From Gamarada debralockiae (taxonomy: Eukaryota; Ascomycota; Leotiomycetes; Helotiales; Hyphodiscaceae): a DNA stretch of 53,803 nt. Made by a program: the position numbers and the translations under genes. Below the pieces are notes generated by a model. The model was not told the DNA's origin. It saw only the letters and a program-made list of their open reading frames with translations, and made no database searches. Below, piece after piece: positions 1,579 through 31,844 of this stretch. Within the stretch, counting starts at the first letter, position 1, and each line of letters begins with the position of its first letter. The stretch is taken from positions 1 through 53,803 of the forward strand of contig NXFV01001355.1 in assembly GCA_002803225.1 (NCBI GenBank). Direction: 5' to 3'.

Positions 1579-3778
1579 CTAAACACCAATTCTTTTCAGC
1601 TCATCTTCCCTCCTCAACCATCTCTGCACCCGAATAAAGCCCTCCAAACACCCCGTCATAACCTCCCAGTCTGCCAACCCAATATACGTAATCGTCGACG
1701 AAACCATTGCTTTCAGAGACCTGCCATACACAGTAAACTCAGCACCAGGGCAAAACACCAAACACAACCATAGGTAAATGCCAGAAATGCTCTTCCATTT
1801 TGAAAGCGTGATGCTAGTCATATTTGCCCAGAACATCTGCTGTTCAATCATGCTGCATGCTTTGGACAATGGGACGCGTTTGAGAATCGAGGAACTGTAG
1901 ACAACGGCTGCAATGCGGCAGCACTCGTAGACAAAATCTCTCGCGAGAAGCGAGTCCTCGTCTGTTATGGATGGCAGAGCTGTAACTCGGTCATGGATCC
2001 AGCGCGCGGTGATGAGACATTTAATGGTCTCTTGGGCCACAAGTGCCTCAGTCTCGTTGGCGGACAGGGCGATAATGGAGCATGTGAGGAAGCACACGTC
2101 ATCGAGAATATCAGCCGCTTCTTTACTAATACCTAGAGTCTCGCTGATATCTCCGAAGCGGATATTGGATTGGAGAAGGGGAGATTCCATGGCCACGGGA
2201 TAGGATGCCAGTGTTGGGAGGGGATCTTTGAAATGCGTGGCTTTGTGTAAGGATAGCTCGCGTTCGCAGGTGCAGGCAATTTGGTAGTTGGTGCTAGCAA
2301 TTGTTAGTCAGGCGTCAGTCGGGGAAGTGGAAAAACTCCACGTCGCCAGAAGAGCGTAGAGAGCTGTGTTCTTCGGCATTTTTTCAAGACCTCCCCGTAG
2401 TCTGAGCATCTGCTGAAGCCCTCTCATATGGGCTAATTGGCTCTTTTTATCCCCATAGTACCACTAAAGAAATCGTTAACATTGCATCGGGGATTCAGTG
2501 CTGAAGATGTCGACCTGAAGTTGATTTATCTGTAATCACCCAGAGACTGTCGGGTTGGATGGAAAGGGAATGATACTTGCCTCATTGACCAAGAGATGCA
2601 TCACAGCTGCAATTGCCTCGTCGCTGACCGTCCTGTGGTGTGTTCTGAGGTATTGATTGATGATTGATATGATCTCAACCCTGATTGCTATCGCTTCTGT
2701 ATGTTTTGAGACATCAAGCCCTAGCGTCTCAGCTTTATAGCAAGACGAAGAAAGGATGGCGGTATAGGCCATGAATGGAGATTTCGCCATCCACGGGAGC
2801 CATCCATCTTGGATAAGTTTCGACTGCCCGATTCCATCAATAGCACCGATGTAAGGAGCGAGCGCGTCATGAACTACGAGAATGTTACTATCAACCCGTC
2901 CATGGAGTTAGATATCCTCACAGAAATGAAACAGTTCAAGGTTACGCCCAGTATTGGGAATTGGGATTGGTAGTAGTGGCTGAACAATAATTTGTAGGCG
3001 CCCGTCAAATGCTTCTGGGCAGCCATACGCAGTCGCCTTGCGAGGAAGAAGGTACGGATTTAAGCAGAAACGTACATACTCGGACTCGGAGACTTGGCTC
3101 TCTTCGGATGAAGGCTTTCGGTTCTTCCCCTGCCTTCGTAATTGACCACTTGCAGCCGCAGAATTACTCGCGGGGTTCTCATCCCCTGAGGTCTTGTTCG
3201 TTTGTGCCGGAGAGCTGATATGAAACGGAAGAGGAATCATCCGTGTGTCTGCATGGTGATTATCGGAGATGGCCAGATTCTGGTCGTATCCATAAATTGC
3301 TTGAGGGATATAGGCGTGGCCAGATCCATTGGGTCCACGGACGTCTCTAGTATCCACCACCATTTCATCTTGATGCGAACCTACGGACTTGACATTTTCG
3401 TAGCTGCAAATTACCGGCGGGTACCTGGTTGGAATGTTGTTTAGTCGAATTTGGTGCCCATGGGGAGCAGGAAGTTAATTAATTACCTCCTCGCGCAATG
3501 ATTGCAAGGCCTATCTTTGGCTTGATTGCACTGCAAGTTATTCAATGAGAAAGCTGCAATAAATCGACTGGTTTTCTGTGCTTGTATAATCGCACCTTTT
3601 GTTTTCTCTTTCGACACTCATTACACGATGTTGGAACTCGCGTGCCTTTCCGCACGCTCTTCACAGTTGTCTCCGAGACTGGTTGAAGAGCTTGCATGGC
3701 GTCAGACTTCAAACAAAATTTGGCTGGGATTCCGAAATTTGGGCACTGTGGCATGCCAAGGTGGGGTCCAAATACCAC
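1579..3778 (-). CDS. Zn2Cys6 (C6) fungal-specific transcription factor, six exons
   Basis: Model: complement of join(1579-2293, 2342-2463, 2581-2873, 2922-3424, 3487-3530, 3596-3778), 1860 nt and 619 aa. The binuclear zinc cluster is rebuilt across two introns: C52, C55, C62, C70, C73 and C82, in the CX2CX6CX7CX2CX8C spacing. The middle region has the fungal-specific TF domain pattern (ELFHFF at a junction, NEWYYG, MRGLQQMLRLRGGL), followed by a helical C-terminal half. An apparent TAA at 2908-2910 falls inside a 48-nt GTGAGG...TAG intron with a CTAAC branch site. The fourth intron (2464-2580) starts with GCAAGT, so it is a GC-AG intron. It is a DNA-binding nuclear regulator and its targets cannot be read. 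M28 is an alternative start. The neighbouring decayed dehydrogenase may once have been a partner. Confidence 0.85.
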
Positions 3779-6496: not shown

Positions 6497-7539
6497 ATGC
6501 TACCCCGAACTGTACGTCGCAGATCTCGTCGATTCATCCTCCTCGTCACCTTCGTTCTCGGTTTCCTCATCTACAAATCGTTTCCTCTCCTCAAACTCCT
6601 CTGCGAAGATGGCTCCCACGATTCAATCAGCGCATCACTTCTCCTCAGCGACTCAGAAACATACAGCAATCCACAGTTAATCCCCAAAATCATCCATCAA
6701 ACATACAAAAACACATTCATACCCTTGAAATGGCAAGTGACTCAAAACTGGACTGTGATACACCACAGCGATTACGAGTACATGGTTCGTCTAAACCCCT
6801 TGCCGTCCGGCTTGAAGCTGATGGAATGTGAAAATAGTTCTGGACCGACGAGTCTGCGCTGGCGTTCATTTCCGCGAACTACCCCGAGTATCTTGAAACA
6901 TATACTTCGTACCGCTACCCAATCCAACGAGCGGACGCACTCCGCTACTTTCTCCTCTACCACTTCGGCGGGATCTATCTCGACCTCGACATAACACCTC
7001 GTCGAAAACTCGATACCCTGCTTACACTCCCCGCGTTCGCATGTCTCACAACTCCGACAGGAATCAGCAACGATGCATTAGGCGCTACTCCCGGACATCT
7101 GTTCTTCCTCCATGTCATAAACTCCCTCCAGAAATACAACCGGAATTGGTATTCGCCGTATATTACGATAATGTCGTCGACGGGCCCGTTGTTCTTGAGC
7201 TTGGTTTGGAAGGAATGGCTGGATAGGGGGAGGAGTATTGGAAGTGGACGAGTGAGAGCGTTGATGCCGGAAGGGTTGGGATATGGATTTTTCGTGAATG
7301 TTGAGGGGAGGAGTTGGCAAGGGCCCGACGAGAGAATGGTTGCGTGGTTGGAACGGCATTGGCTTTTTGATATCGTTCTGGGGATTACGGCAGTCTTTGT
7401 GATGGTGGGGTTGTTGTGCCGGTTGTTTAACTGGGTTTGGAAGAAAGCACAGCGGCGGTTGTGGATCGCTGGTGTAAGGGCAACGTGGCAAGTCGAACGG
7501 TGGAACGTGCGAGGAGACGCAAGCAAGAGCTTCGTATGA
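6497..7539 (+). CDS. SUR1/OCH1-type glycosyltransferase (DXD, sugar-binding GT32), probable inositol-phosphoceramide mannosyltransferase
   Basis: Model: join(6497-6784, 6838-7539), 329 aa, with one 53-nt intron. Residues 12-34 form an N-terminal signal anchor (FILLVTFVLGFLIY). The GT32 block IPKIIHQTYKN follows, and after the intron FWTDESALAF, YPIQRADALRYFLL and GGIYLDLD, with the DXD at D145-D147. Conserved PTGISNDALG and MSSTGPLFLSLVWK follow, and a C-terminal membrane helix (DIVLGITAVFVMVGLLC). The product should be a Golgi type II membrane enzyme that transfers mannose from GDP-mannose. The STGP block and C-terminal helix fit the fungal MIPC synthase catalytic subunit (SUR1/CSH1) better than OCH1, but the acceptor is inferred. 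Confidence 0.88.
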
Positions 7540-9309: not shown

Positions 9310-11101
9310 TCAGATCCCGTCCATAACTATCGCCTTCACAGACACATCCGGCCTCTCCTTCTCACCCATAACCAATTCCTCCAAACCCACACTGCCAAAA
9401 TCCTCGAACCCTTTCAATCCCTCCTCAACGACCCACTTCTTCCCTGCTTCACTCTTATGCAACACCTCGCACGCGGCACCCAAGACCAGTAATCCTGGCG
9501 GTCTGCTCCCTTCCTCCTCTATCGCTGCCGCCACGAACTCAAGCGTTGTGCGAATAACTCTCTGGTCAGGACAGCTCGCCCGCTCAATCACCGCACAAGG
9601 AGTAGTTTTCGGCCACAACTTCCTGCTCTCATCCACACTTCCATCCTCCTTGAGTCTTTTCGCACCTTCGGAGTTCCACGTCGTGAGATCTGCCACCAAC
9701 CCAGTGATTCGATGTAAAGCCATCAAGAACACCACCGTCCTCGTCTCCACAAACTCTGGCGGCATAGTAGGTATCCCCTTCCTTCCTGTGCCAGTGCAGA
9801 TCAGGACTTGATCACTGACAGCTCTTTGTGTAGCTGGTATGCCAGCGAAAAGCGGTGCGCTGAGCGCGCTGGTGATACCAGGCAGCACACTAATCGCACC
9901 TCCATATCCCTCCTTCCTGAAGTACTCGAACTCCTCTCCGCCTCTGCCATAGATATATGGATCTCCTTGCTTCAATCTCAATACTCTCTTCCCAGCTTTC
10001 AACCCAACTAGACCGAGTTCCAACAGTTCTTCTTGTGCGCGCTCAGCATTACCAGGGAATTTGCGTGCAATATGTACGGGCGTACGGCGTGGTATGAGGT
10101 CCAGCACTCCGGAGGGAACGAGCTTATCTGCTAGAATCACATCTGCTGTCAAGATCGCTTTGTGGGTTGCTCGAGTCAACAGATCTGGATGCCCTGGTCC
10201 ACTTCCTGCAAGTATGATCCTACCCTTCTTCTCACTTTGCGCATCATGTTGCGTCGTATCAGGCGGCGCTGAAGTCTCGGGGTTTGACGCATACGACTTC
10301 AACACTGAATCCACATCCTCATCTGTGATATTCGCCAGTCGTCGAAGGGGCCAGTATTCACATATCTGACTCAACCAACGTATCCTCCTATTCTTCTGCG
10401 CGCCCAGGTCTGCTTCCGTCACCAATCTGTTAAAGGATGCTGTTTGGTCGACTGAATCTTCTTCATCGAGATCACTAACCAATGCGAGCTGGAGGAGGTG
10501 ATCTTCTTCTTGTATTCGTCTGCGAATAGTCCCGAGACGTGCACACGCAGCACCGAGTTGTGGAGGGAGAGAGGACGCGATTTCTCGTCGTATTCGAGAG
10601 GAGAGCTTGCAGCCGCGGCCGTTGGTCGTTACGCCGATTTGGAGAGGCCCGTCGGTGTGTGTGGAGAGAAGCGTGAAGGTGCAGAGTGATGGAGCGTCTG
10701 CTACGTTGACTGGTATTCGATTTCGTCTGCAGAGTTGGGAGATATGCGCACCTGTCTTCCGTCAGTTTCGCCCCAAAACATCAATTGCTTCCTAACACAC
10801 TCAAAGGATCTCGAGGCCCCAAAGTAATAAAGACGGCATCAACGACTCCACCAACTTCTTCCCTTCCAAGTCGCAACACATCTTCATCTTCAAATGCCTT
10901 CTTCAACCATTCTACTTCCCCACTCTCTACTCTCTTCTGCAATGCGTAATGGAGGTCTGCGATTTCTGGAGCGATGAGGCGAGGCTTCGCGCCGACTTCG
11001 AGAGACTTCGCACAGCGTGCTGCTGCCAATGGATTGGATCCCACGATGAGATGAATGTGCGATGTCGAGTCGACCGCTGTGAGGAGAGATACGGGCGCCA
11101 T
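9310..11101 (-). CDS. MET1: Uroporphyrinogen-III C-methyltransferase (siroheme synthesis)
   Basis: Model: complement of join(9310-10751, 10801-11101), 580 aa, with one 49-nt intron. The N-terminal part resembles the Met8/CysG dehydrogenase fold (HIHLIVGSNPLAAARC, ITLGPRDPLS, then across the intron CRRNRIPVNVAD and LCTFTLLSTHTDGPLQIGV). The C-terminal part is the SAM-dependent tetrapyrrole methylase, with AGSGPGHPDLLT, LKQGDPYIYGRGGEEFEY and LPGITSALSAP. It methylates uroporphyrinogen III to precorrin-2 for siroheme, the cofactor of sulfite and nitrite reductases. The length matches yeast Met1 (about 590 aa). Residues that would make the N-terminal part an active dehydrogenase were not assessed. 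Confidence 0.93.
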
Positions 11102-13140: not shown

Positions 13141-14708
13141 AGGATCGCGAATTGCGTGGTAAAATTGATAGTGGTACAGGGCAAGAGGATGGGCAATTTT
13201 GGCCATACGGTGTCCAATGTGCAGTGGATTAGACGTTACTTGACTCCCTTCCGTCCCGGTCGCTAAAGATTAACTTGATATTGACTCGTCTCCAAAGAAT
13301 CTGTTGTCTGATAAAGTTAATGATGTCACAGCCATTTCTTTTTGTGCTCTTAAAGGCCGTTTTCCACTGTTGAATTTTTTTCTCATGATGTTTGAACTGA
13401 CAATTGCAAAGGCTCCTATGATAATCTCTTAGATGTTATTGAGGCAAATTGAAGCTTGCACGGCTTTCAGATCCGCTTAGAATCGAAGGTGAAGATAACT
13501 ATGGAAATCAGGTACTTCAGGAGTACATTCGGAACTTTGACAACATTTCTGGCCTGCTAGATAGCTTCGCTCGCAATCTCTTAGCCAACCGCCAGACCAT
13601 GGAAAACCTGCCAACCAGGAAGGCCAATAAACTTGTAGAAAGCTCTCCGTCAAATTCGAGAATCCACTAGCAGCCTCCATCTTGCTTTGTGTCACAAACG
13701 CCTAGCCGCTGTGTACAAAGATACCACCCAGCGACGCACCACCCGGACAACGAGTATCGAAACTAGAAGAAGCATAGCTTCGACGACAGTTAGGAATGTC
13801 CACAAATGCACATGCACTCGAAGGAGGGAAGGGCAATACTCCCCCGTAGGGGCGTCCATATTGAATCAACGTCCACGTTAGACAAAGTACTGGTGTATTT
13901 GGAAACTGCCCACTTTGAGATCCCTGGGAGCTTATTTCGGCTCCATGAGCATCGACGTTGGTTTAGACTAGCGCGAAGTGCTCAGGTGACCTGGCTGAGC
14001 CGAGGGTGATTGCAGTCAAACTTGGTCATTACGGAATGAAAATTCAGAGGATTTCATTCCGATATGATCAGAATTCCGATAGACCAAGTAAATAAGGCTG
14101 ACATTTCAGGCCAAATACTGAGATTTGCTAAGGGATTCTCGAGGTTTGCCCTAAAAAGCAGGCCAAAAATACCCCTATTTCAGGCTTTCACGCCTATTTT
14201 GTCTACCTTATCATATCGGAATATTCCAAAAATTTTAGCATTCTCATTCCGGATTGGCTAATAACAAGATTTCCGATATAGCCACCTAAAAGTCGACGAA
14301 TCCGGAGTTTGTCGCCGATATAACGATAATTCCGATATGAACCAGTCCGTAATGACAAAGCTGTAGCGCCTGAGCAAGAGCGGCAAGCTCGCTAACCGAA
14401 TGCGATACACAGGAGAAAAGGAGCTGGTTGATAATACCCCGCCATGACGCCTTATCGCACCAATCATGTCTCGCTTAATTACGGGTTGCAAGGCGCTAAA
14501 ATCTGCAGGCTCTTGCCCCGCGGGAAATCATCTGCAAGGCTGTCAACAACCCAACCACAGCCTTGACATCGCGATACCTCTGTTCCTTTAACGAATCACA
14601 ATCTTGTCGTCTTAATCTTTAAACACCACACAGAGATCAAACTACCCTTCTTTCTTCTCCAAGAAAACACTCCGCTTGTGACGCCAACGCCTCGAGCGAG
14701 CGGGCACG
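13141..14708. other. Intergenic with a MITE-like element
   Basis: No protein-coding signal was found. Apart from the inverted-repeat element at 14025-14356, I see only unstructured sequence. The 3' end (about 14360-14708) is the promoter region of the 2EXR gene. Confidence 0.45.
14025..14356. repeat. MITE-like element with terminal inverted repeats
   Basis: The left end GTCATTACGGA (14025-14035) is the exact inverse of TCCGTAATGAC (14346-14356). The similarity continues imperfectly inward (TTCAT...CCGATAT against the inverse of ATATGAA). The 332-bp interior repeats variants of TTCCGATAT/ATATCGGAA at about 14057, 14081, 14216, 14271 and 14330. It has no coding capacity. I saw no clear target-site duplication, so the class is open. 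Confidence 0.6.
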
Positions 14709-16118
14709 ATGGCGGGACAGAGACAGGCCGCCATACTCGCTATGCAAAGAATTCGGGCGGAGATTCCACGGCTGGGAAGAGGAGAAAGAACTGAGGCCGA
14801 TGACACTGAATATCGAAGGCGGCCAAGAGAGGAGACGTCCCCGCCCGACGACGAGGACACTGCGTACGAGAAACGCTTGCAGGAGTTGAAAAGTCGTGCG
14901 AATGGCCTTGCTGTATTCGAGTCCAATATTAGAGATGGCGAAGCCCCCATCTGGGAGTTAGATGAGCACCAGCGCAAATTGCAAGAGCGAGAGAGGGCTT
15001 TGATTGAGCGGGAACTGCAAGCACTCAGGCAGATGAAAGCTATCAGCAAGGGCGACAGTGACGAGAGCTTGGAGAAAATCGGGAAGAAGTATCAACAGGT
15101 AGAGCTGGACCGCCGTGAGCTTGAACTAGACGCTCAAGAGAAGGAATTGGCATGTCGCAAGCTACGACTTGAGATTCGCACAAAGCTGCAGTCTGATATC
15201 GATAAGCTTCTAGGGAGCAGGGAGTTGGAGATGAGTAGGGTCGAGAGAGCCCTTACGCAACGAGCGATCGTGTCACCCGACCCACGAACGACCGGGCTGA
15301 AGGATTTCACTTGTTTCCCCTCCCTGCCTGTCGAACTTCGCCTCAAAATCTGGTCACTCGTGGAAACGCCGTACGATCAACCCCGAATACATTCCATCCG
15401 CGGATTTCCATATTCTCTACTAGACAGCAGACAATCAGCAAACGATAATGTGGACGAGCAAGATGCAGATGTCAGGCAGATTTCTTGGCCCGGGATTGCG
15501 GAGTTCTCACCAGAACTACGAGAGTGGGGCCTCGAGCGAGTTATTTTCCTCTCCCCTCACCAGATCCATCCAATTCTTCACGCTAGTCAGGAGTCTCGAA
15601 ATTTTGCACTGAAAAAATTCAAACTAGAATTCTTGTTTGAAACGTTCATCAATTTTGATATGGACACCATCTTCCTGGACACGTCACCTGGCATCTCTTA
15701 CACCGAGCTCCAATGGTGCGGACGTATGTCTGGCGAAGAGCTGTCGAAAAATAGCGCGAGTTCGAAGGTTCGATCCTTAGCATTGCACTCTAGAGATGGT
15801 TATGGAGTGTGGATAGTGCCATTTGACTCTTGGTACTTTCTGAAACAGGCCAAAAATTTGAAGTTCGATTTGAGTGGAGTGGAGGAAGTGGTTGTGGTGC
15901 ATGGTGATCACAGAGGATTGAGAAGAACAGATGGAAACGCGATAGCTCGGGACTTGGTGTTTGTCGACTGCAACACTGAGGTGGATAACTACTATTCTCG
16001 CCAACTCTCTGCGGGAAAGCCTTATTACCAAGCAGGTTGGGATGATATTGCTCGATCTGATGACCCTGACTGGAAACCCCCCACATTCAGACATGTACAT
16101 GCACGCAGACAATCATGA
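14709..16118 (+). CDS. Coiled-coil protein with 2EXR domain
   Basis: An intronless 469-aa protein. Residues 50-185 are charged and heptad-like (ELKSRANGLA, HQRKLQERERALIERELQAL, LDRRELELDAQEKELACRKL) and predict a long coiled coil. From about residue 196 the text FTCFPSLPVELRLKIWSLVE is the start of the fungal 2EXR domain, an F-box-like fold greatly expanded in Leotiomycetes and Sordariomycetes. The usual mid-domain block HPILHASQESRNFALKKFKL and a tail with PFDSWYFLKQAKNLKFDL also occur. The molecular function of 2EXR proteins is not established. The F-box-like start suggests protein-protein adaptor roles. Confidence 0.85.
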   Translation: MAGQRQAAILAMQRIRAEIPRLGRGERTEADDTEYRRRPREETSPPDDEDTAYEKRLQELKSRANGLAVFESNIRDGEAPIWELDEHQRKLQERERALIERELQALRQMKAISKGDSDESLEKIGKKYQQVELDRRELELDAQEKELACRKLRLEIRTKLQSDIDKLLGSRELEMSRVERALTQRAIVSPDPRTTGLKDFTCFPSLPVELRLKIWSLVETPYDQPRIHSIRGFPYSLLDSRQSANDNVDEQDADVRQISWPGIAEFSPELREWGLERVIFLSPHQIHPILHASQESRNFALKKFKLEFLFETFINFDMDTIFLDTSPGISYTELQWCGRMSGEELSKNSASSKVRSLALHSRDGYGVWIVPFDSWYFLKQAKNLKFDLSGVEEVVVVHGDHRGLRRTDGNAIARDLVFVDCNTEVDNYYSRQLSAGKPYYQAGWDDIARSDDPDWKPPTFRHVHARRQS

Positions 16119-21931: not shown

Positions 21932-24900
21932 ATGTCGGCAACAGAAGCGATGGAACGCATGTGTGGCCTTCGTGAATGGAGCGACCAGTTTGGCAATCAT
22001 GGCACGGAACTTCTCACTCAACGCCATACGAGCTCACGCGCTGTACAGGCAAATGATCTCTTCACATTTGGCGAGGAAAACACAGGCATCAGTCTGGCCG
22101 ATTACTTTCACCCTGCCGGAGAGCCAGTTCGGAGGACCTTTGTGGTGGTTGACAACTGCCTTCCACAAGACAAACGTGCATGGATTGAGAACTACTTTTA
22201 CTGGTGCAAGACCGCAAAGCTATTGGACGATTATCAAATCTTGCCATTTGCGGCCGACAAAACAGAGAAGACGCTGGGAAAGGTTGCAGCTGTTTTGGTA
22301 GCCGCTATAGAGTTTGGGATGCGTCGAAAAGACATTTTCATTGCCATTGGAGGCACGATGGTTACAGACATTGTGGGTTTCGCAGCAGCCGTGTATCGTA
22401 GGTCGACACCGTATATTTCTGTGCCGACTGATATAGTCGGGATCATATATTGTCATGCCGGAAACACTAAGGTCTCCATCAATCATGTCAACCATGATGA
22501 TGTGACTTACAGGGAACTGTTTGCCTTGTCTCATCTTCCAATCGCCAGCTTTTACGATCTTGGGTTCTTGGATTCTGCGCCCAAAAAGGAAATCGTCCGC
22601 GGTCTGACCGAGGTGATCAGGATTGCTGTGGTCAGAGATGCCGCATTGTTCTCGTACCTGGAAGCATATTTGGGGGAGATAATGGCAGGTAGTGATGGAG
22701 GATATCTGAAGAATGTCGTCAAGCTCGCTGCTAAAGCCGTATCGGAAGAGCTCGATATAGACCCGCGGGGAAAAAGCATCCACCTGGCTGCTGTAGATTT
22801 TGGATACGAAGCAGTAAGAGCCATAGAGCAGATCAAGGGGGCTACTTACGATGATACCAATTCTATGGCTATAGGGGTTGCGTTGATGTCTGCGTTGTCG
22901 TTTGTGAAAGGAAGTTTGGGTGGTGCGGAACTTGGGCGTGTGCTAAGAGTTCTCGAAAATGCCGGGCTACCAATCTGTGACGAGACACTTGAAGCACGCA
23001 CGCTGTGGGAACACATGACAGATTCATGTCAAGAACGAGGAGGAGCTTCCGCATTTATTGTTCCAATGATAGTCGGGAAAGGAGGGTCTCTGAACATGGC
23101 GGACGTTTCTCGAGAGGATATTGGCGCGGCCTTGTCTGTTCTCCACAATCATGGCCCTGAAAACCCCAGCGGATCCTTTAAATTGGAAATGTGCACCTCT
23201 GCTGTAGACAAAACAGATATCAGCGATGGGATTTATGGACATACTACTTCAGAAGATGTGCAATATCATGTTGTCTCGGTTTCGAACATTTTCAGCCCAA
23301 GCAACACCACGATAATCCAAAATTATTGCATTGGCAACACAGCTGGACGTAAAAGAAGGATTTTGATTGTTGTGGACGATCATCTGGGCAGTACTATCAG
23401 TGATATCGATGTCTATTTCAAGAGTCACATCTCGGCAATTGACGACTTCTTCGTCCTCTCCATGCATGTTTCCAGCGTAAGCAAGGACATCGACAGCGTG
23501 CTCAAGGTGGCTGAGACCGCCGTTGGACTAAGGATGTCGCCGCGAGATCTCCTTCTTGTGGTTGGAGGAGGGACGCTCATGGATATTGTCGGGTTCGCCG
23601 CCGCGATCTATAAAGGGGGTATTCCCTATCTGAGAATCCCAACGACCCTTGTGGGGATGATCGATGCCGGAGTTGGAGCTAAAGTTGGGGTAAATTTCAG
23701 AAACCATAAGAGTATAATTGGAAGATATTTCACCCCGATTGCGTGTCTCAATGACGCAGACACATTTCTAGTCACGCTGCCACAGCGTGAGTTTGCCTGT
23801 GGATTGGCCGAATCGATCAAAATGGCTATACTCAAGAGTCCACGCCTTTTCGAAGTGATTGAGAGACATCACCGCAATGTTGAATACAACATATACACCC
23901 ACGAGTTGATTGACATTTCCATCCGTACAATGCTTGAAGAACTGCAGCCGAATCTCTATGAACAGGGTTTGTGCCGACTTGTCGACTTTGGACACGAATT
24001 CGGGCATATCGTGGAGTCCCTTGCCAGACACACAATCCCTCATGGCGAATGTGTTGCTATCGGCATGGCGATTTCCTCTTTTCTCGCTTATCTGAAAGGG
24101 GTACTCTCGCGGTCTGATCTGGAGAGGATCCTAAATTGCATTCTTGATATGGGGCTTCCCATTTACTTGACCGGCTACGATTGCTGCAATGCCGATGTTC
24201 TGTGGGAAAAAATTCGCACAGGCGGAATTGAGCACAAAGACGGAAACCTGTATCTGGTTGTGCCCAAGACGATTGGCGAAGGAACTTTCCTCAACAATAT
24301 TTCGGACATTGACGCTGAGATGCTAAGCGAAGTCATACTCAGTTTGAGACGCTACGCTGATGCATATACGAAAGGCAGTCATTCAACATCAGAAGATAGT
24401 GCCAAGTTTGAGATCGACAATCCATCTCTCTCCAATGGCAAGTCCTTGTTGTCTACAACGGCTGCGATAATCGGCGCGTCTGGCGACATTGGGTCGCAAC
24501 TTCTTGGCTATCTAGTGCAAAATGGCGTTCAAGTAATTTGTTCTGTTAGATCCGCTTCCTTGCACTCATTCAATAAACGAACGAATCTTATCGATCCTAG
24601 AATCCGTGTTCTCACCGGAGATGTACTTGATTTGGCCAACCTGCAGGTGATCATCCAAGACGCAGATGTCATTTACAACATGGCGGGCGTTGTAACACTC
24701 GGTTCCAGGCCCGACGAGTTTGCGAGGGTCATCGCCCTGAACGGGTTCGCCCAGGGAATAATCACGCATCTGATCCAAGAGATGAAACGGGATCAAGACA
24801 TAAAAGTTGTGTATCCTTCCAGCGAGCGAGTTCACCTGACTAGCGACAACGTATCTGTGAAGGCTTGGGTTCAAGAGGCGGCTAAAGCATACTATATACA

Positions 24901-27900
24901 AAGGAACGCACTTGTTGCCGAGCAAGGTATATACACGGCGGTGGAAAAGTTCGCAGAGCAATTTATCGCTAGTCATCCGTTACCAGCTGGATATAACGTG
25001 TATGAGATCTCCAAACAACTCGGCGAATACTTCGTGTCTTGCTTGCCAAGGTATTCTCTGGTGAGAATCTCGAGTGTGTACGGCCCAACCTTTACCAAGG
25101 GGTTCATCTATCGAGCGATTCATCCTAAATACGAAGGAAACGTCGAAGCGCCAGAAAGGAGAGACTTCATTTATGTCGATGATCTAAATGAATTGCTCTT
25201 GAAAGCAGCACAGACGCAGTGTGCAGATAGTAACGTCTTTGACGGGGCCTCCGGCGTAAGCATGGATTTGCAGGAAGTGTGGTGCATGGTGAGAGAATTG
25301 ATGGGCGATCGTGCTACACTTACTTTGAAAAGTAATGTGGCCCAGGAAGAACTGAAGCCTGATTCTGCTTTCGCCCGCCATCTGTTGGGAAGAGATTTGA
25401 CGTCCATGCGTGTGGGGTTGCATCAGACAATCCGCGGGTCCGTTCAATCTTCTCGTCAGTTGGAGCCGGTCAAACATCTCCAGCACCCCGAGACTTTCAA
25501 GCACATGGAGAACGAGGATTTGGTTCCAGGCACGACTTGGCTGAAATTTGTTTGCAGCGCAGATGGATTCCGCATTCTTGATGGAGTGTCTCCTATCACA
25601 GACATCTTAGAGCGGTCTTTGAGTGAATGGTTCAGCAAGCTGACATCTTCTCACCAAGAAGTATTGACTCAATGCATGAGCCTCGCGCCGGGACTATCCA
25701 TCCGCTTACGTTCAGATCCAGCAATGACACAGATGGGCGAGTTTACCATTGAGGAGAAAGGGCAGCATGTTTATCAAAGCTTTATTGATCTCCATGCCGG
25801 CTTTGCCACGAGAGCCTATCATGCCCACAGCCCAGAAAAGATAGACGACATTGTTGGCCACATGGGCTATCATATCCTCGCCTTCCTACTCAGAGGGCAA
25901 ACCCCATTACTTTCTGAAAGGGAACGGGAACGAGAACAAGCAATGGCCAAACATTGGAAAGACTTTCTCCGACGTTGGGACAAGCATCACGTTATTGTAT
26001 TGGATGTAGGAGCAACCTATTTGCGGGTTGCGATTATGGGTCCACATGGTTTTCTCCAAGATGAGCCCACTCAAATTCCTAGCCCTAGCAAGCAACTGTA
26101 TCCCCAAGACACACTTGCTATGCTTCAGGAGAAGCTACTAAACACACTTGTCCGGGAAATCGATACCGTCAGGGCTCGTCATATTGACCTCTCCCTTGAA
26201 GAAGTTGGGGTATCATTTGGTGCCGTAGTCACTCGCAAAGGCGTTGTGGAAGATGCGAGTATTCTTTGGGGTTATTCGGCCCGCGGTTACGACTTTAAGA
26301 ATGCTTTGCTGAAACGCTTGCCTGGTGTACGCTTGACAATCCTGAACGACATTTCAGCTGCCGCTTGGCGATACAAAAACGAAGGACGTTTCTGCCTCAT
26401 TACCGTGAGCTCAGGACTTAGCAATAAGGTTTTCAATCCCGACCTCTGCGGCCTCGACAGGCTTGATCTTGATGCTGCAGGCGTCGGTGGCGAGATGGGC
26501 CATGTGGTCGTGGAGCCGCGTGCTGTGGACGCGCTGGTACGGCATGCGATATTGCAGGCAAATGCCCATCCCGAAGACTTCAGACGCTCGCAATTGAATT
26601 CCTATGTAGATGGGGATGTCCAGAAAATTAACGCGCGACTTTTGGGAAAGGCAGCCAAAGAACACGACGATTTCACAGTGCGCTTGCTCGAGGAATCAGA
26701 TATTCCAGCCTGTTCCTGCGGTAATCTTGCAGATCTATGCTCATACAGCTCTGGCAGAGGGGCCTTGCGTCATGCCCAAAGGTTGGCCGCTCGTGGGGGC
26801 TACGATGTCGCACCCAACGACATCACTGACAGCTGGCTCCGACAATCGATCGTAACGGGCCATCCGCTGGCGCTTAAAGTTTTGTATGATTCGACATACC
26901 CATTGGCGGTGCGCATTTTGCAATTGGCAGCAGATATTGGTCTGGAAAAATTCATCATCGTAGGCGGGTACGCTATGAAGACTGGGAAAGAGTTGTATCT
27001 ACAGGTCCTCCAAGAACATTTGGTGCGATTTTGCCACCAATCGGGATTTTTCAGCGGTTGGCCCGAAGATAAAGTCCGCGGGCTGGTCGCGTTCGGTGTT
27101 GGTGATGACAATGACGGTTTGATCGGCATGGGTCATTTTGTGCAGCACTTACGCACACAATATCACGCCGTCGAGAAGACAGTCGGAGAGCAAACTCTCG
27201 CAGTCGTGACGAGAAGCATTCCTCGTTGCGGCGCCCGGGAAGTCCTAGCCAAGGTTATATTCTCTGGAATATGCACAACCGACTTGCAGATCCTGCGCGG
27301 CGAACGTGGACTCGAGCCAACGGTCCTTGGCCATGAAGCCGTTTGCCAGGTATTGGAAACAGGCAAAGACGTGAAGGGTTTAAGCGTGGGTGAGATGGTA
27401 GTCCTGAATCCCAACAATCCTTTGGACGATCACGACAAGTTGGGGCATACCAGAGAAGGCGTGTTCCAAGAATATGTGAAATTTGGCCAGGAATCTTTAG
27501 AGAGAAAACAAATTCTGACGCTGGGAAGGTCCGCAGTCAGCGAAACCGATACGCTCGTTGAACCGCTCAGCTGTGTGGTTGCAGCACAAGACCGCATCAA
27601 AGATCGCATAGCGGGAAAGAATATTCTCGTGATTGGAGCTGGCTTCATGGGTCTATTATTTGTCTTGATGAACAAGAAAATGGGGGCACGGGATGTTTTT
27701 CTAGCGAACCGCTCCAAAGAAAGACTCGAATTCGCAGTAGCGAGGGGGATTGTTCAGAAAGATAAAGTCTTTGTCGTTGGTGCAAGTGTCTCGTCACGGG
27801 TGAATGAAGTATCGGCAGGCGAAGGCGTAGATATCGTAATCATCTGTGTCTCCCTCGGCCAAGGAGTGCGTGCCGCTCAAGATGCTATCTCTTATGTGAA

Positions 27901-29794
27901 CGCTGGCGGTTGCGTATATCTTTTTGCAGGATTTCGTCCCGGCGACATCTTGGCTTTGGAAGGAGGGGCGAATGTGGATGCCTGGTCAATTCGATCCTGC
28001 TGGAAAACCGAGCGAATCCGAATTGCTGGCAAGCCAGTGGATTTGTCAGGTCATCGCGGGAGCCGGAATGAAGACCTTGCCATGGCCGCCAATTTGATTC
28101 GTGGCGACAGACTCTCCTTTGGCAGAGTGATCTCACATATTATTTCGCTTGATGCTCTCCCAGAAGTCATGCTAACGCTTGCTCGGGACGGAACCATCCA
28201 GGGCGTGCCAGCCAAAAGAGTAGTTGTAGATATGGATGCTAGAGACATACTTGTCGAATCCGCAGAGGCGCTCCCGCTACGCCACCTTCACGAAGCCGCA
28301 AGGAAACAGAAGGATGCAATTTCCATGGGGAACATGTTCCGTGAACTTGGTTTCGAAGGCAATACCTCCTTGCTAGGTTGGGCCTGCCCACCAGCATGGC
28401 AGGAGATTAGGAGCACAGTAGAGACAGCTCTCCAGATGAAATCGTTGAGCTCGAAACGGCATTTCATTTGGATTGGGACTGGAGGCTGGGTGTTCTTGGT
28501 GGATGTTCTAAAGGAGATTATGCCCGCAAGTCAGGACCTCACTTTCCACATCCTCCAAAGTCTCGATCCACAAGCCCTGGCGAACCTTTTCTCGCTCATA
28601 GACGATCTTTCTGTGGCCGTGTGTTTAGGAATAAGCCAATCGGGCAAGACACTAGAGACCGTTATGTTGATGAATGCATTGCGGGAGCGCTTCGATAGTG
28701 CTGGACTCGACTACCGAGAACATTTCGTTTGGCTGACGGATATTAGCAACTCTGTTCGTGCTTGGAAGAGCGGCGAAGCAACGATTCGAATTTCCAAGGA
28801 ACATGACTGGAAGCACGTGGATATGGTGCCACTGACAGTGAACAATCATGCCGACATCAACGCCCTGTTTTGCGCGCCCCATTCGATGTTAATGTTCGTG
28901 CCGCTGGTACTTTTGCTCTGCGAAGATTGGACGGCCATGTGGAATATATATCAGCAGTATCTTGCATTTAGAGACGGCGTTGTCCAGGATCTACTTCCCA
29001 AGGCGTACCTTATTGCATCGAATCACATCGAACACATCCAATTGAATTTGGATGAGAGCATCGCGCCTGCCATGGCGAGATTGGTAATTCAGCTCATAGA
29101 ACAGGCGATGGGCTCAAAACAAATCGGGTTCAATCCACGAGTCAGCGTGACTTCCTATGGCGAGCTTGCTGGATTTGAACTTGTATCGCTGCCGATGCCT
29201 ACTGAAACTCCAGCGGCCGTCAAGGTAATGCTAACGATGAATGCCCTTTCAGTATTCGTTGCCATGGTGGCTTATTATAGAAGTATCAAGTTTGTCACTC
29301 ACCCCAAAGTGGACTTATATAAGAGCAGGGCTGTAAAGCTGATGGACGTGCCTGAAGTCGAACGAAAAGTCTCAGATCCTGGATCAATCAGTGCTGAGGT
29401 GTTCGCATATCTGGACAACAATTCTCGAACGCGTTTTGTGGAGGTCCTCTATTATGGCCTACTCCCTGCGTCCCGCCAGCAGAGCATAAAAAATTGGATG
29501 TCCTCTTGTTTGGCGCCAAAGACTCGGAGCATATCTATCGACGTCGTTCAGGGTGAAGAATGGAATCATTCGGAGTATCAGGCGGCAGTGCAAACGGAGG
29601 ACACCGTATATGTGATTCTGGTGTTGCAGAAGTATTGCTGTGAGGTAGAGGGCATCTCGATAAGAGCTATCGACGGTAATACCAGGACGCTGAAGGCAAT
29701 CGCCCGTGCTGTATATGAGACTCTTTCTCCCAAGTCGTTATTTTTCCGTGTTGCGGACCAGTTCGAATCGAGCAGTAGGAATGTCCCTGAATAG
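21932..29794 (+). CDS. Giant six-domain putative C7-cyclitol biosynthesis protein: pseudo-cyclase, cyclase, SDR, ROK kinase, MDR and PGI
   Basis: A single uninterrupted frame of 2620 codons. Domains in order, with approximate residues: degenerate sugar-phosphate cyclase 45-405; intact sugar-phosphate cyclase 445-805 (Zn ligands E627, H688, H704); extended SDR/epimerase 843-1168 (GASGDIG, Y1024, K1028); unrecognised segment 1169-1345; ROK kinase 1353-1742 (D1358, N1472-D1473, GGEMGH); zinc MDR 1747-2103 (C1781, H1801-E1802, E1877, GAGFMG); and phosphoglucose-isomerase/SIS 2110-2612 (ISQSGKTLET). Bacterial acarbose/validamycin pathways use a cyclase, a ROK 7-kinase and SDR/MDR dehydrogenases as separate proteins. 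The fusion therefore probably converts sedoheptulose 7-phosphate into a modified, phosphorylated C7-cyclitol in the cytosol, and no targeting signal is visible. Intact catalytic motifs over 7.9 kb argue for selection. It has no introns, unlike its neighbours. The product and the exact step order are inferred. Confidence 0.85.
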   Translation: MSATEAMERMCGLREWSDQFGNHGTELLTQRHTSSRAVQANDLFTFGEENTGISLADYFHPAGEPVRRTFVVVDNCLPQDKRAWIENYFYWCKTAKLLDDYQILPFAADKTEKTLGKVAAVLVAAIEFGMRRKDIFIAIGGTMVTDIVGFAAAVYRRSTPYISVPTDIVGIIYCHAGNTKVSINHVNHDDVTYRELFALSHLPIASFYDLGFLDSAPKKEIVRGLTEVIRIAVVRDAALFSYLEAYLGEIMAGSDGGYLKNVVKLAAKAVSEELDIDPRGKSIHLAAVDFGYEAVRAIEQIKGATYDDTNSMAIGVALMSALSFVKGSLGGAELGRVLRVLENAGLPICDETLEARTLWEHMTDSCQERGGASAFIVPMIVGKGGSLNMADVSREDIGAALSVLHNHGPENPSGSFKLEMCTSAVDKTDISDGIYGHTTSEDVQYHVVSVSNIFSPSNTTIIQNYCIGNTAGRKRRILIVVDDHLGSTISDIDVYFKSHISAIDDFFVLSMHVSSVSKDIDSVLKVAETAVGLRMSPRDLLLVVGGGTLMDIVGFAAAIYKGGIPYLRIPTTLVGMIDAGVGAKVGVNFRNHKSIIGRYFTPIACLNDADTFLVTLPQREFACGLAESIKMAILKSPRLFEVIERHHRNVEYNIYTHELIDISIRTMLEELQPNLYEQGLCRLVDFGHEFGHIVESLARHTIPHGECVAIGMAISSFLAYLKGVLSRSDLERILNCILDMGLPIYLTGYDCCNADVLWEKIRTGGIEHKDGNLYLVVPKTIGEGTFLNNISDIDAEMLSEVILSLRRYADAYTKGSHSTSEDSAKFEIDNPSLSNGKSLLSTTAAIIGASGDIGSQLLGYLVQNGVQVICSVRSASLHSFNKRTNLIDPRIRVLTGDVLDLANLQVIIQDADVIYNMAGVVTLGSRPDEFARVIALNGFAQGIITHLIQEMKRDQDIKVVYPSSERVHLTSDNVSVKAWVQEAAKAYYIQRNALVAEQGIYTAVEKFAEQFIASHPLPAGYNVYEISKQLGEYFVSCLPRYSLVRISSVYGPTFTKGFIYRAIHPKYEGNVEAPERRDFIYVDDLNELLLKAAQTQCADSNVFDGASGVSMDLQEVWCMVRELMGDRATLTLKSNVAQEELKPDSAFARHLLGRDLTSMRVGLHQTIRGSVQSSRQLEPVKHLQHPETFKHMENEDLVPGTTWLKFVCSADGFRILDGVSPITDILERSLSEWFSKLTSSHQEVLTQCMSLAPGLSIRLRSDPAMTQMGEFTIEEKGQHVYQSFIDLHAGFATRAYHAHSPEKIDDIVGHMGYHILAFLLRGQTPLLSEREREREQAMAKHWKDFLRRWDKHHVIVLDVGATYLRVAIMGPHGFLQDEPTQIPSPSKQLYPQDTLAMLQEKLLNTLVREIDTVRARHIDLSLEEVGVSFGAVVTRKGVVEDASILWGYSARGYDFKNALLKRLPGVRLTILNDISAAAWRYKNEGRFCLITVSSGLSNKVFNPDLCGLDRLDLDAAGVGGEMGHVVVEPRAVDALVRHAILQANAHPEDFRRSQLNSYVDGDVQKINARLLGKAAKEHDDFTVRLLEESDIPACSCGNLADLCSYSSGRGALRHAQRLAARGGYDVAPNDITDSWLRQSIVTGHPLALKVLYDSTYPLAVRILQLAADIGLEKFIIVGGYAMKTGKELYLQVLQEHLVRFCHQSGFFSGWPEDKVRGLVAFGVGDDNDGLIGMGHFVQHLRTQYHAVEKTVGEQTLAVVTRSIPRCGAREVLAKVIFSGICTTDLQILRGERGLEPTVLGHEAVCQVLETGKDVKGLSVGEMVVLNPNNPLDDHDKLGHTREGVFQEYVKFGQESLERKQILTLGRSAVSETDTLVEPLSCVVAAQDRIKDRIAGKNILVIGAGFMGLLFVLMNKKMGARDVFLANRSKERLEFAVARGIVQKDKVFVVGASVSSRVNEVSAGEGVDIVIICVSLGQGVRAAQDAISYVNAGGCVYLFAGFRPGDILALEGGANVDAWSIRSCWKTERIRIAGKPVDLSGHRGSRNEDLAMAANLIRGDRLSFGRVISHIISLDALPEVMLTLARDGTIQGVPAKRVVVDMDARDILVESAEALPLRHLHEAARKQKDAISMGNMFRELGFEGNTSLLGWACPPAWQEIRSTVETALQMKSLSSKRHFIWIGTGGWVFLVDVLKEIMPASQDLTFHILQSLDPQALANLFSLIDDLSVAVCLGISQSGKTLETVMLMNALRERFDSAGLDYREHFVWLTDISNSVRAWKSGEATIRISKEHDWKHVDMVPLTVNNHADINALFCAPHSMLMFVPLVLLLCEDWTAMWNIYQQYLAFRDGVVQDLLPKAYLIASNHIEHIQLNLDESIAPAMARLVIQLIEQAMGSKQIGFNPRVSVTSYGELAGFELVSLPMPTETPAAVKVMLTMNALSVFVAMVAYYRSIKFVTHPKVDLYKSRAVKLMDVPEVERKVSDPGSISAEVFAYLDNNSRTRFVEVLYYGLLPASRQQSIKNWMSSCLAPKTRSISIDVVQGEEWNHSEYQAAVQTEDTVYVILVLQKYCCEVEGISIRAIDGNTRTLKAIARAVYETLSPKSLFFRVADQFESSSRNVPE
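22064..23146 (+). other. Domain 1: degenerate sugar-phosphate cyclase (pseudo-enzyme)
   Basis: Residues 45-405 follow the dehydroquinate-synthase fold (IAIGGTMVTDIVGFAAAVYR, YISVPTDIVGI, GLTEVIRIAVVRDAALFSYL, AVDFGY). It aligns without gaps to domain 2 around the metal site, where both Zn histidines are lost: H688 is Y292 here and H704 is D308. The HGE motif becomes DTN (308-310). The glycine triplet is GGT (140-142), the DAGVGAK loop becomes CHAGNTK (174-180), K630 becomes R230, and HK becomes HD (188-189). E227 is kept. The domain probably has a structural or dimer-partner role. Confidence 0.8.
23264..24346 (+). other. Domain 2: catalytic sugar-phosphate cyclase, C7-cyclitol type
   Basis: Residues 445-805. 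The NAD-binding GGGTLMDIVG lies at 545-554. The loop IDAGVGAKVGVN (577-588) followed by N591-H592-K593 resembles sedoheptulose-7-phosphate cyclases (EEVS, EVS, DDGS) rather than the DSSVGGKT loop of dehydroquinate synthase. GLAESIKMA gives E627 and K630, DFGHEFGH gives H688 and IPHGECVAIGM gives H704, a complete metal triad. Subtype assignment (2-epi-5-epi-valiolone against desmethyl-4-deoxygadusol) needs alignment. The absence of an O-methyltransferase or ATP-grasp partner argues against the mycosporine route. Confidence 0.82.
24458..25435 (+). other. Domain 3: extended SDR / NAD-dependent epimerase-dehydratase
   Basis: Residues 843-1168. The Rossmann motif GASGDIG (848-854) follows a beta strand (AAII), GDVLD and ADVIYNMAG follow, SS at 963-964 is the catalytic Ser position, the active site is Y1024-x3-K1028, and RRDFIYVDDL (1076-1085) is the substrate-domain signature of nucleotide-sugar epimerases. 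In a cyclitol pathway it could epimerise or oxidise/reduce a ring hydroxyl. Confidence 0.8.
25436..25966 (+). other. Segment between domains 3 and 4, no family recognised
   Basis: Residues 1169-1345. It has moderate hydrophobicity and secondary-structure-like text (TWLKFVCSADGFRILDGVS, GYHILAFLLRG) but no motif I know. It ends in a charged run (SEREREREQ) that looks like a linker. It is long enough to be a folded domain of its own. Confidence 0.5.
25988..27157 (+). other. Domain 4: ROK-family sugar/cyclitol kinase
   Basis: Residues 1353-1742. The ATP-binding DVGAT is at 1358-1362, catalytic LNDISAAAW contains N1472-D1473, and GVGGEMGH (1517-1524) supplies the ROK GExGH block. The zinc loop is CSCGNLADLC (1594-1603). 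The ROK consensus CxCGxxGC is altered, because the third Cys position is D1601 and a Cys occurs two residues later. VGGYAMKTG (1677 on) is the C-terminal nucleotide loop. In acarbose and validamycin biosynthesis the C7-cyclitol 7-kinases belong to this family. Confidence 0.83.
27170..28240 (+). other. Domain 5: zinc-type medium-chain dehydrogenase
   Basis: Residues 1747-2103. The catalytic zinc site is C1781 (SGICTTD), H1801-E1802 (LGHEAV) and E1877 (VEPLSC). The Rossmann motif GAGFMG is at 1902-1907. The four-Cys structural-zinc loop of polyol/threonine dehydrogenases is absent, since the stretch NPNNPLDDHDKLGHTREG has no Cys. Cyclitol oxidation or reduction is the likely reaction. Confidence 0.8.
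28259..29767 (+). other. Domain 6: phosphoglucose-isomerase / SIS domain
   Basis: Residues 2110-2612. WIGTGGW (2181-2187) matches the PGI glycine loop, ISQSGKTLET (2234-2243) is the SIS phosphate-binding signature, and HPKVDLYKSRA near the end of the second subdomain resembles the C-terminal Lys helix. The usual GGR(F/Y)S block is not evident (NNHADINALFCAPHS at 2304-2318), so the isomerase activity may be altered or lost. It may feed fructose 6-phosphate toward sedoheptulose 7-phosphate or bind a cyclitol phosphate. Confidence 0.72.
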
Positions 29795-30571
29795 AAAAAC
29801 AAAGTTAGCGTATGTACTGCCAAAGTTTAATAGATTCGATAAAAGTTTGAAACTATAGTGTCTCGAAGTCGACGTACGTATCTTACCCAGTTGTCGAAAG
29901 GGATCTTCCACTGGACCACTGGGTGCTTCTGTGACAATCTCAATTCTTGGAATAACGAAATAGACTGGAAGCCCACGCTTCCTGTAGAAAAAACAATAGT
30001 TTTACACAATCTAAACAATTCAAAACCCAATTTTTCCGTAACCAACTACAACTATCCAGGTTACACCATCCCGGTACGTGACGTCCACTTCAACCTAAAG
30101 TCCAACGCAACAACGGCAGTAGAACGGCCAAGGCATATAGAAACAAAACAAATAGAAATAGAACAATGCATTCCTGTCAAGCCATGATCACTTGATCTGG
30201 CGAATTTAGATACCATCTGGCCAGCTTGAGGCCGAGTTTAAAGCTCAAAAATCATGGTTGTACAAATGTCATCTGCTTCGTAGACTTGGACTCCCATAGC
30301 TTAGAAGCATGAGCTAAAATTCGGGCTCTATTGTCTTCTTGCATGCTTGACGTCCCAAGTGAGAAGATTAGTAGAGCAAAAGAAGTTGTGGTCAAAAGGA
30401 TACGATTTTCGCTGGAAATTCAGGAGTAGGTGTGTGCACGTGACTATAGTCGGCAAAGCCCGCTTCAGCGCGGACCATTTTCTACCTCTCGGTGACTCTG
30501 GATTTACAAGCACCACTTTTCAGATTGGTGGGTTCCCGGTAACCTACTCATACAACATTCCTCTAGACACA
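29795..30571. other. Intergenic between the giant gene and lipoyl synthase
   Basis: No gene is visible. The right half is the LIP5 promoter. An in-frame ATG at 30347 would add 75 residues to lipoyl synthase but lacks mitochondrial presequence character, so I assign the span to the 5' UTR or promoter. Confidence 0.5.
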
Positions 30572-31844
30572 ATGTCAACGACAGCAAGTAGGCTCAGGTG
30601 TCTGAACGCACCTCCACTGCGCCAAGTATCACGAAACTTTCTCTCCGCATCCTCAACTTCAAGATCCTTTGCCTCCGAAGCCTCAACCCCAGAGCCAGCT
30701 CCCCGAAGACGACCAACATACTTCAAAGACAAACTCAACACCGTCCCCTCCTTCTCCGAGTTTGTTGGTCTCCAAGAACAACCTCTATCAAACGAAGATG
30801 CACTCGAATTGCGAACAGCGATGGTCGGGCCCGCCGGGAAAAAGAAGCAGATTACACGACTACCTGAATGGTTGAAGACTCCTATCCCCGACAACTCGAA
30901 TTACAAGAAGATTAAGAAAGATTTGAGAGGGCTGAATCTACATACTGTGTGTGAGGAGGCGAGATGTCCGAATATTTCGGATTGTTGGGGTGGAAGCGAT
31001 AAGAGTGCTGCAACGGCGACGATTATGCTGATGGGCGACACATGCACGAGAGGATGCCGGTTCTGCAGTGTCAAGACTTCGAAGGCGCCTCCGCCACTAG
31101 ATCCTCATGAGCCAGAACATACTGCGGAGGCATTGTCACGATGGGGTTTGGGATACGTGGTTTTGACGTCGGTGGATAGAGATGATCTTGTGGATGGTGG
31201 CGCGAGACATTTCACGGAGACGATCATGAAAATCAAACAGAAGAAGCCAGAGATGTTGGTTGAAGCTCTCACGGGAGATTATGCTGGGGATTTGGAGATG
31301 GTGGGCATGGTGGCGAGGAGTGGGTTAGATGTCTATGCGCATAACATGGAGACCGTGGAGGAATTGACCCCAATGGTACGAGATAGACGGGCAAAGTACA
31401 GGCAGAGTTTGAAGGTGTTGAATGCTGCGAAGGAGGCGGTTCCATCGTTGATCACCAAGACCAGCATTATGCTGGGATTGGGAGAAACGGAGGAGCAGCT
31501 ATGGCGGACTTTGAAGGGTATGTCGAATTTTCCAAAAGATGCACAGCCGTACTGATAATTGACCAACAGACCTCCGCGAAGTCAATGTCGATGTTGTGAC
31601 ATTCGGCCAATATATGCGGCCCACGAAACGCCACATGAAGGTCGAGGAATACATCACACCCGAGACCTTCGAGTTATGGCGACAACGGGCACTCGATCTC
31701 GGATTTCTATACTGTGCTAGTGGCCCTCTAGTGAGAAGCTCGTATAAGGCTGGTGAGGCATTCATCGAGAACGTGCTGAAGAAGAGGAAGGGCGTGACAA
31801 TTCTTGCGGATGAAGCAATAGGGATGCAGAAGGCAATTGTATAA
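30572..31844 (+). CDS. LIP5: Lipoyl synthase, mitochondrial (radical SAM)
   Basis: Model: join(30572-31517, 31570-31844), 406 aa, with one 52-nt intron (GTATGT...CAG). The start at 30572 gives an Arg/Ser-rich mitochondrial presequence ([20 protein letters not shown]). The auxiliary 4Fe-4S ligands are C127, C132 and C138 ([12 protein letters not shown]). The radical-SAM cluster is C158, C162 and C165 (CTRGCRFC). [13 protein letters not shown] and the terminal RSSYKAGE, whose Ser ligates the auxiliary cluster, are present. The enzyme inserts two sulfur atoms into octanoyl groups on lipoyl-dependent enzymes in the matrix. It is a conserved housekeeping gene that marks the right border of the repeat-associated island. 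Confidence 0.95.

Follow-up and report, generated by a model that had tools for sequence, protein, structure and literature searches.

An open reading frame for a multi-domain protein in Gamarada debralockiae

The window, that is the whole stretch of 53,803 nucleotides of contig NXFV01001355.1 that was analysed, contains a fungal gene in which six recognisable enzyme domains lie end to end on a chain of 2,620 residues. These are two sugar phosphate cyclase domains (SPC1 and SPC2), an SDR, a ROK-family kinase, an MDR and a PGI-fold domain; a conserved region termed LNK is located between SDR and ROK. The features are given with their position in the window, strand and main evidence.

21932..29794, + strand: whole ORF, 2620 aa in a single frame, order SPC1-SPC2-SDR-LNK-ROK-MDR-PGI
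22109..23221, + strand: SPC1 (aa 60-430), likely pseudo-cyclase; PDB match to ValA with 109 bits, equivalents of the zinc-ligand His absent
22325..22327, + strand: Arg132 of SPC1, invariant (Arg in 46/46 SPC1 rows); SPC2 equivalent P537 (Arg in 23% of 47 SPC2 rows)
22397..22402, + strand: Arg156-Arg157 of SPC1, invariant (46/46 each; 12/12 bacterial tandem proteins); SPC2 equivalents K561 and G562
23249..24361, + strand: SPC2 (aa 440-810), active-looking SH7P-type cyclase; closest solved relative ValA (4p53)
23615..23617, + strand: Gly562 of SPC2; Arg in 78/78 other bacterial cyclases in the alignment
23810..23812, + strand: Glu627, predicted zinc ligand of SPC2 (47/47 fungal-family rows)
23993..23995, + strand: His688, predicted zinc ligand of SPC2 (48/48 fungal-family rows)
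24041..24043, + strand: His704, predicted zinc ligand of SPC2 (48/48 fungal-family rows)
24437..25381, + strand: extended SDR (aa 836-1150), optional; Pfam Epimerase
25454..25966, + strand: LNK (aa 1175-1345), conserved domain without family; 23/43 core-complete rows
25967..27136, + strand: ROK-family sugar kinase domain (aa 1346-1735); Pfam PF00480 with 33.5 bits (cut-off 22.9)
27149..28186, + strand: zinc-dependent MDR (aa 1740-2085); Pfam ADH_N with 47.7 bits
28199..29791, + strand: PGI-fold domain (aa 2090-2620); recognised by its fold

A first-pass annotation of this DNA had proposed a multi-domain fusion in one uninterrupted frame. This was confirmed: the frame stays open over all 2,620 codons, and relatives show the same fusion. 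The homologue search recommended there was run against 5.8 billion proteins and resulted in 52 matches, 49 of which are relatives of the ORF protein. An organism is named for 17 of them, and all 17 are fungi, including Geoglossum, Cadophora, Seiridium, Fusarium chlamydosporum, Stictis, Diaporthe, Microdochium and Arthrobotrys. Query and relatives form a family alignment of 50 rows, and 43 of these contain SPC2, ROK, MDR and PGI with at least 60% coverage each. Within the 43 core-complete rows the N-terminal half of SPC1 is present in 42, the SDR in 32 and LNK in 23, counts that may be blurred by incomplete gene models (some homologue models are partial, e.g. 1701 and 1490 aa). On the basis of these counts we regard SPC1-SPC2-ROK-MDR-PGI as the core, with SDR and LNK coming and going. 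No description of this architecture was found in the literature as judged by titles and abstracts.

The domain search, likewise recommended, placed Epimerase, ROK and ADH_N above cut-off and recovered the PGI fold. Besides the Epimerase match, the extended SDR has the glycine-rich NAD loop and the YxxxK motif, with Tyr1024 in 37 of 38 rows and Lys1028 in 39 of 39. LNK gave no Pfam match, and its best PDB profile match reached just E 0.89. The ROK domain combines PF00480 with the DxGxTxxR motif, the catalytic Asp and the Cys motif, whose residues are kept in 49-50 of 50 rows (Asp1473 and three Cys in 50/50); the third Cys is displaced relative to the usual Cys motif. A Pfam ROK search of the fungus' own genome did not recover even the ROK domain of this ORF. 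In the MDR, which has the catalytic zinc residues Cys/His/Glu, ADH_zinc_N stayed under its cut-off, and Cys1781, His1801, Glu1802 and Glu1877 occur in 49/49 rows.

The catalytic Glu of the PGI-fold domain shows no clear conservation: position 2390 is Glu in 36 rows and another letter in at least seven, and it is Arg in the bacterial loci L009 and L010 described below. The region of the catalytic Glu carries the motif IEQxLGSK, in an unsure register, compared with the ESxGK-type motif of phosphoglucose isomerases. A profile comparison with the best PGI by sequence matched positions 128-212 and no more, and 107 of 561 residues of the structure model have a pLDDT below 50. Beyond the PGI core we observed a motif GExWNHSxYQ (window aa 2541-2550), a related form of which recurs in the PGI-fold proteins that L009 and L010 encode.

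Two cyclase domains of unequal state

By sequence as well as by predicted fold, ValA is the best match of SPC2. The score against ValA was 206 bits, versus at most 123 bits for dehydroquinate synthases (DHQS) of solved structure; 5tpr, with 138 bits, is labelled as dehydroquinate synthase in that listing, but is DDGS. The catalytic residues of SPC2 are fixed across the family rows, and the domain resembles the ValA/AcbC-type 2-epi-5-epi-valiolone synthases (EEVS), compared by way of ValA, in fold, zinc ligands, MLEELQPN, DFGH and D685. In contrast to SPC2, the ValA/AcbC type has no pseudo-cyclase in front, and ValA contains Pro, Arg and Asn where SPC2 contains His692, Lys769 and Ser594, and Arg in place of Gly562. 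At the sites of His692 and Lys769, most other EEVS-like enzymes likewise have a different residue; at position 594 the family is divided between Ser (30 rows) and Asn (17 rows). Because SPC2 departs from ValA at these four sites, a selection rather than a full site list, the label EEVS is too narrow for it, and its product may be another isomer than 2-epi-5-epi-valiolone.

In SPC1, His is found in 0 of 39 rows at the equivalent of H688 and in 2 of 41 at that of H704. To compare both domains, 47 SPC1 and 47 SPC2 pieces were aligned with 78 other bacterial cyclases, which stem from one scan with two peptide patterns favouring EEVS-like sequences and are not a sample of all SPCs. One residue reaches at least 95% among these 78 cyclases in 85 columns. 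Exactly three of these columns are 46/46 in SPC1 and yet at most 23% in SPC2, and all three are Arg: R132, R156 and R157, with 23%, 13% and 0% in SPC2. Gly occupies the site of Gly562 in the fungal family (46/46) and in the bacterial tandem proteins (12/12), whereas the 78 comparison cyclases without exception have Arg. None of the latter showed a second cyclase in front; eight have at least 150 aa before the match, none of it cyclase-like, and in L076 this check gave only a short match at the start of its own cyclase match.

Arg130 of A. nidulans DHQS is a ligand of the substrate phosphate and is donated by the other subunit of the dimer. We take R157 of SPC1 to correspond to this residue. 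For its origin from the neighbouring subunit no support was found in the accessible literature, and among the 11 pocket residues given in the accessible part of the MtDHQS paper the equivalent of Arg130 is not included. If the donation in trans holds, the arginines of SPC1 would serve the one real active site, and those of SPC2, facing a dead pocket, would have been lost. The predicted structure of aa 1-830 has a pLDDT of 82.0 and a pTM of 0.84. Structural comparison gave model ranges of about 21 to 807 for most DHQS rows and of 435-809 for ValA; since a range gives only its ends, this does not prove a strand swap and is at most compatible with tight pairing.

The first-pass annotation had described two cyclase domains. 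Both are indeed of the cyclase type, but one is active-looking and the other, having lost the zinc histidines, is likely a pseudo-cyclase; a reading with two active cyclases was rejected from the residue patterns. Judged from these patterns, SPC1 likely lends its arginines to SPC2. We therefore favour, as the probable reading, a fungal one-chain C7-cyclitol synthase in which SPC2 closes the ring and SPC1 acts as a built-in dimer partner.

The protein could also be a C7-cyclitol synthase whose SPC1 is a decaying or merely scaffolding copy that gives SPC2 nothing, the missing Arg of SPC2 reflecting a changed substrate. We consider this unlikely. SPC1 does evolve faster, with identities to the query of 0.28-0.66 (rows with full SPC1 coverage) versus 0.55-0.79 for SPC2, and the deviating H692 and K769 would suit a changed substrate. 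A remnant, however, would hardly hold three Arg in every one of 46 rows while its zinc histidines disappear. Moreover, R156 and R157 are still present in seven family rows that lack the C-terminal half of SPC1. The same swap is seen in the bacterial tandem proteins, with Arg-Arg in all 12 SPC1 copies, the C-terminal half of which is short or not alignable.

An actinobacterial operon with the same domain order

A scan of prokaryote genome contigs from 84,980 species with the SPC2 alignment yielded 100 relatives, and 80 loci were kept. At E 1e-4, relatives of ROK, MDR and PGI were found in the fungal order in two of these 80 loci, from Actinoallomurus soli (L009) and Streptomyces lincolnensis (L010). 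Both carry a tandem of cyclases within one ORF, and ROK and MDR form one polypeptide with 37% (L009) and 35% (L010) identity to fungal aa 1355-2101 (E 9e-143 and 7e-128). For PGI the similarity is lower, with 21-22% identity (E 1e-15 and 1e-14). A protein search with the bacterial ROK-MDR showed both ROK and ADH_N in 74 of the 75 matches listed. Within the family of a Micromonospora genome the operon was detected in 10 of 354 genomes (L106-L115). Tandem SPC, one-frame ROK-MDR and PGI match thus lie side by side in 12/12 loci (the PGI match of L112 comprises just 208 aa), and all 12 operons combine Arg-Arg in SPC1 with Gly in SPC2. Among 394 genomes of one bacterial class, the operon turned up in the query's own genome alone, and for this reason it looks rare.

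In contrast to the single fungal chain, the operon encodes three polypeptides and shows no SDR or LNK match; for the SDR this applies at E 1e-4 to the 80 cyclase loci as well as to the 12 operon loci. The earlier statement that the bacterial pathway enzymes are separate proteins has to be modified to the extent that tandem cyclase and ROK-MDR are already fused in these 12 operons; for the rest it stands.

Several kinds of genes recur around the operon. In 11 of 12 operons a GH5 glycosidase gene immediately precedes the tandem cyclase (L009:6950-8461; none was seen in L010), and these genes are 57-72% identical to that of L009; the enzyme could possibly serve in self-protection or processing. 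GFO/IDH/MocA genes are found nearby in 11/12, GT2 genes in 6/12 and HAD phosphatase genes in 6/12 operons, L009 included (L009:14624-19445 and counterparts), with the phosphatase of L112 on the other strand and upstream. For L010 these counts take in no further downstream genes, as its contig ends about 1 kb past the PGI gene. An ABC transporter is present in L009 and L107. The GH5, GFO/IDH/MocA, GT2 and phosphatase genes suggest a glycosylated end product in the bacteria.

Other arrangements were observed in single sequences. Downstream of the PGI gene of L010, frame 13349-15226 contains a cytidylyltransferase-like domain (PF01467), perhaps for a nucleotide-activated cyclitol. The protein P0137 (1217 aa) is 60% identical to the Actinoallomurus ROK-MDR, its MDR part matching partially, and is joined with a PGI-fold domain, which is an intermediate degree of fusion. 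The Mucilaginibacter locus L085 has by coordinates a cyclase match (1677-2702) and a ROK match (2808-3758) in the same 723-aa frame and is perhaps a cyclase-ROK fusion; its cyclase has His at the site of H692, like fungal SPC2. The Eremiobacteria locus L029:8795-10783 encodes a 663-aa cyclase frame in which about 300 aa of sequence unlike a cyclase precede the match; the Arg is kept and a ROK match follows downstream.

In the fungal window no clear biosynthetic cluster or partner set was found near the ORF among 20 of 131 open stretches of at least 90 aa that were scanned, and introns may hide further parts. Among the scanned neighbours are partial frames for a lipoyl synthase, two MFS proteins, esterases, hydrolases and a sugar transferase (Gly_transf_sug), besides a tetrapyrrole methylase and 2EXR, SAP and RING domains. 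The lipoyl synthase part lies directly downstream of the ORF (30305-31552), and the tetrapyrrole methylase/sirohaem frame (9313-10761, - strand) and the sugar-transferase (Gly_transf_sug) part (6838-7536) lie upstream. GH5 relatives occur in the fungal genome on contigs C658 and C351 as pieces of 40-49% identity.

The lack of a clear secondary-metabolite cluster among the scanned stretches would fit a protein that acts in breakdown or interconversion of cyclitols, similar to inositol catabolism, and so would the weak similarity of the MDR to the scyllo-inosose 3-dehydrogenase IolM (62.5 bits, cut-off 450). We regard a catabolic role as improbable: cyclases of this type are known to catalyse a committed step of biosynthesis, and the glycosyltransferase and phosphatase genes near the bacterial operons, together with the ABC transporters, point to synthesis.

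Phylogenetic position and origin

A tree was calculated from 14 of the 50 fungal-family rows, the 12 bacterial tandem SPC2 copies, 30 of the 78 single cyclases, ValA, DDGS, DHQS and the fungus' own AROM. In this tree, which carries a long-branch warning and includes one unassigned row on the DHQS side, the fungal-family SPC2 clade (100/99, n=14) and the bacterial tandem SPC2 clade (100/100, n=12) are sisters at 99/94. Within the SH7P side they form a clade of their own that excludes ValA, DDGS and 29 of the 30 single cyclases. The remaining one, from Mucilaginibacter, has a long branch and attaches with weak support (84/38). A split at 100/100 separates the SPC2 side from DHQS and from the fungus' AROM.

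This split bears on the reading of SPC2 as dehydroquinate synthase and of the protein as part of the shikimate or quinate pathway, which is very improbable. Several sources do name family members 3-dehydroquinate synthase, and the NCBIfam model aroB gave 302.5 bits, just under its cut-off of 305. However, PRK06203 (304.3 bits, cut-off 333) is also under cut-off, MLEELQPN and D685 are common to SPC2 and ValA, and G. debralockiae has its own AROM, encoded elsewhere in the genome on contig C987, where DHQS and EPSP synthase domains share a frame. A true DHQS, which the first-pass annotation had considered as the finding that would speak against it, is ruled out by the model cut-offs, the higher scores of ValA, the separate AROM and the tree, and the database name is likely wrong for these members. 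An artefact of assembly or intron reading, for which one could cite that some homologue models are partial, is hardly conceivable, and is ruled out by gene models of named fungi from several genera that contain the same fusion.

The simplest account of the one-chain synthase is that its genes came from an actinobacterial-type source and then became fused. As SPC1-SPC2, ROK-MDR and PGI are encoded by adjacent actinobacterial genes, transfer of the operon, with its genes joined end to end, is the most likely origin of the fungal gene, the direction of transfer being inferred; the fungal SDR and LNK are additions to the operon set.

Proposed function

2-Epi-5-epi-valiolone synthases are bacterial enzymes, and EEVS also occur in vertebrates. 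In the fungal protein, SPC1 and SPC2 would pair within the chain as a pseudo-dimer. Zinc and NAD would be bound by SPC2, which would act on sedoheptulose 7-phosphate and cyclise it, and SPC1 would reach across with R157, together with R156 and R132, which are gone from SPC2. The ROK domain may then transfer a phosphate to the C7 hydroxyl, like AcbM in acarbose synthesis, and the PGI-fold domain may shift or epimerise the hydroxy-ketone, the task of AcbO in acarbose formation. The zinc MDR, plus the SDR where present, would set the oxidation state to give a carbasugar phosphate. Substrate and product are presumed, and the order of the steps is a guess from analogy.

According to the accessible part of the source on acarbose synthesis (PMC9200736), AcbC closes the ring, the ROK-like AcbM phosphorylates C7, AcbO epimerises, and AcbL and AcbN follow. 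As far as described there, both systems share a cyclase, a ROK-type kinase, an epimerisation and dehydrogenases acting on a C7 ring, but the acarbose enzymes are separate proteins; AcbL, AcbN and AcbO are set beside the fungal domains by role alone. Because cyclase, ROK, PGI fold and two dehydrogenases run parallel to this pathway, we propose a C7-cyclitol phosphate as product, with the PGI fold placed by analogy in the epimerisation slot. The interpretation of the first-pass annotation is partly supported: its C7-cyclitol or carbasugar phosphate is in keeping with a ValA-type cyclase that is accompanied by a kinase, two dehydrogenases and an isomerase fold, while its assumption of two cyclases is not supported. 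The main additions to that interpretation are the pseudo-cyclase with the arginine swap and the bacterial operon.

We put forward only tentatively the wider view that the cyclase lineage common to actinobacteria and ascomycetes may be an obligate pseudo-dimer with one active site, the dead half supplying arginines in trans, and that in fungi the whole operon became a carbasugar megasynthase on a single chain, which might be the source that is missing for the C7 units of fungal natural products. For guignardone-type fungal meroterpenoids a C7 unit from 2-epi-5-epi-valiolone has been proposed, and the accessible part of that source names no gene (PMC5635028); a link of the ORF to these compounds is speculation. 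If the proposed function is true, the ORF would provide a concrete gene for C7-cyclitol chemistry in ascomycetes. It would also, after AROM, be the second example of a pathway that fungi have condensed into a single polypeptide: in AROM, too, a cyclase of the DHQS superfamily heads a fused pathway protein, although its other domains differ and it belongs to the shikimate pathway. Each fusion step would then be comparable, because a partly unfused bacterial form still exists. The protein would further permit a clear test of an enzyme whose inactive twin is retained for a few residues.
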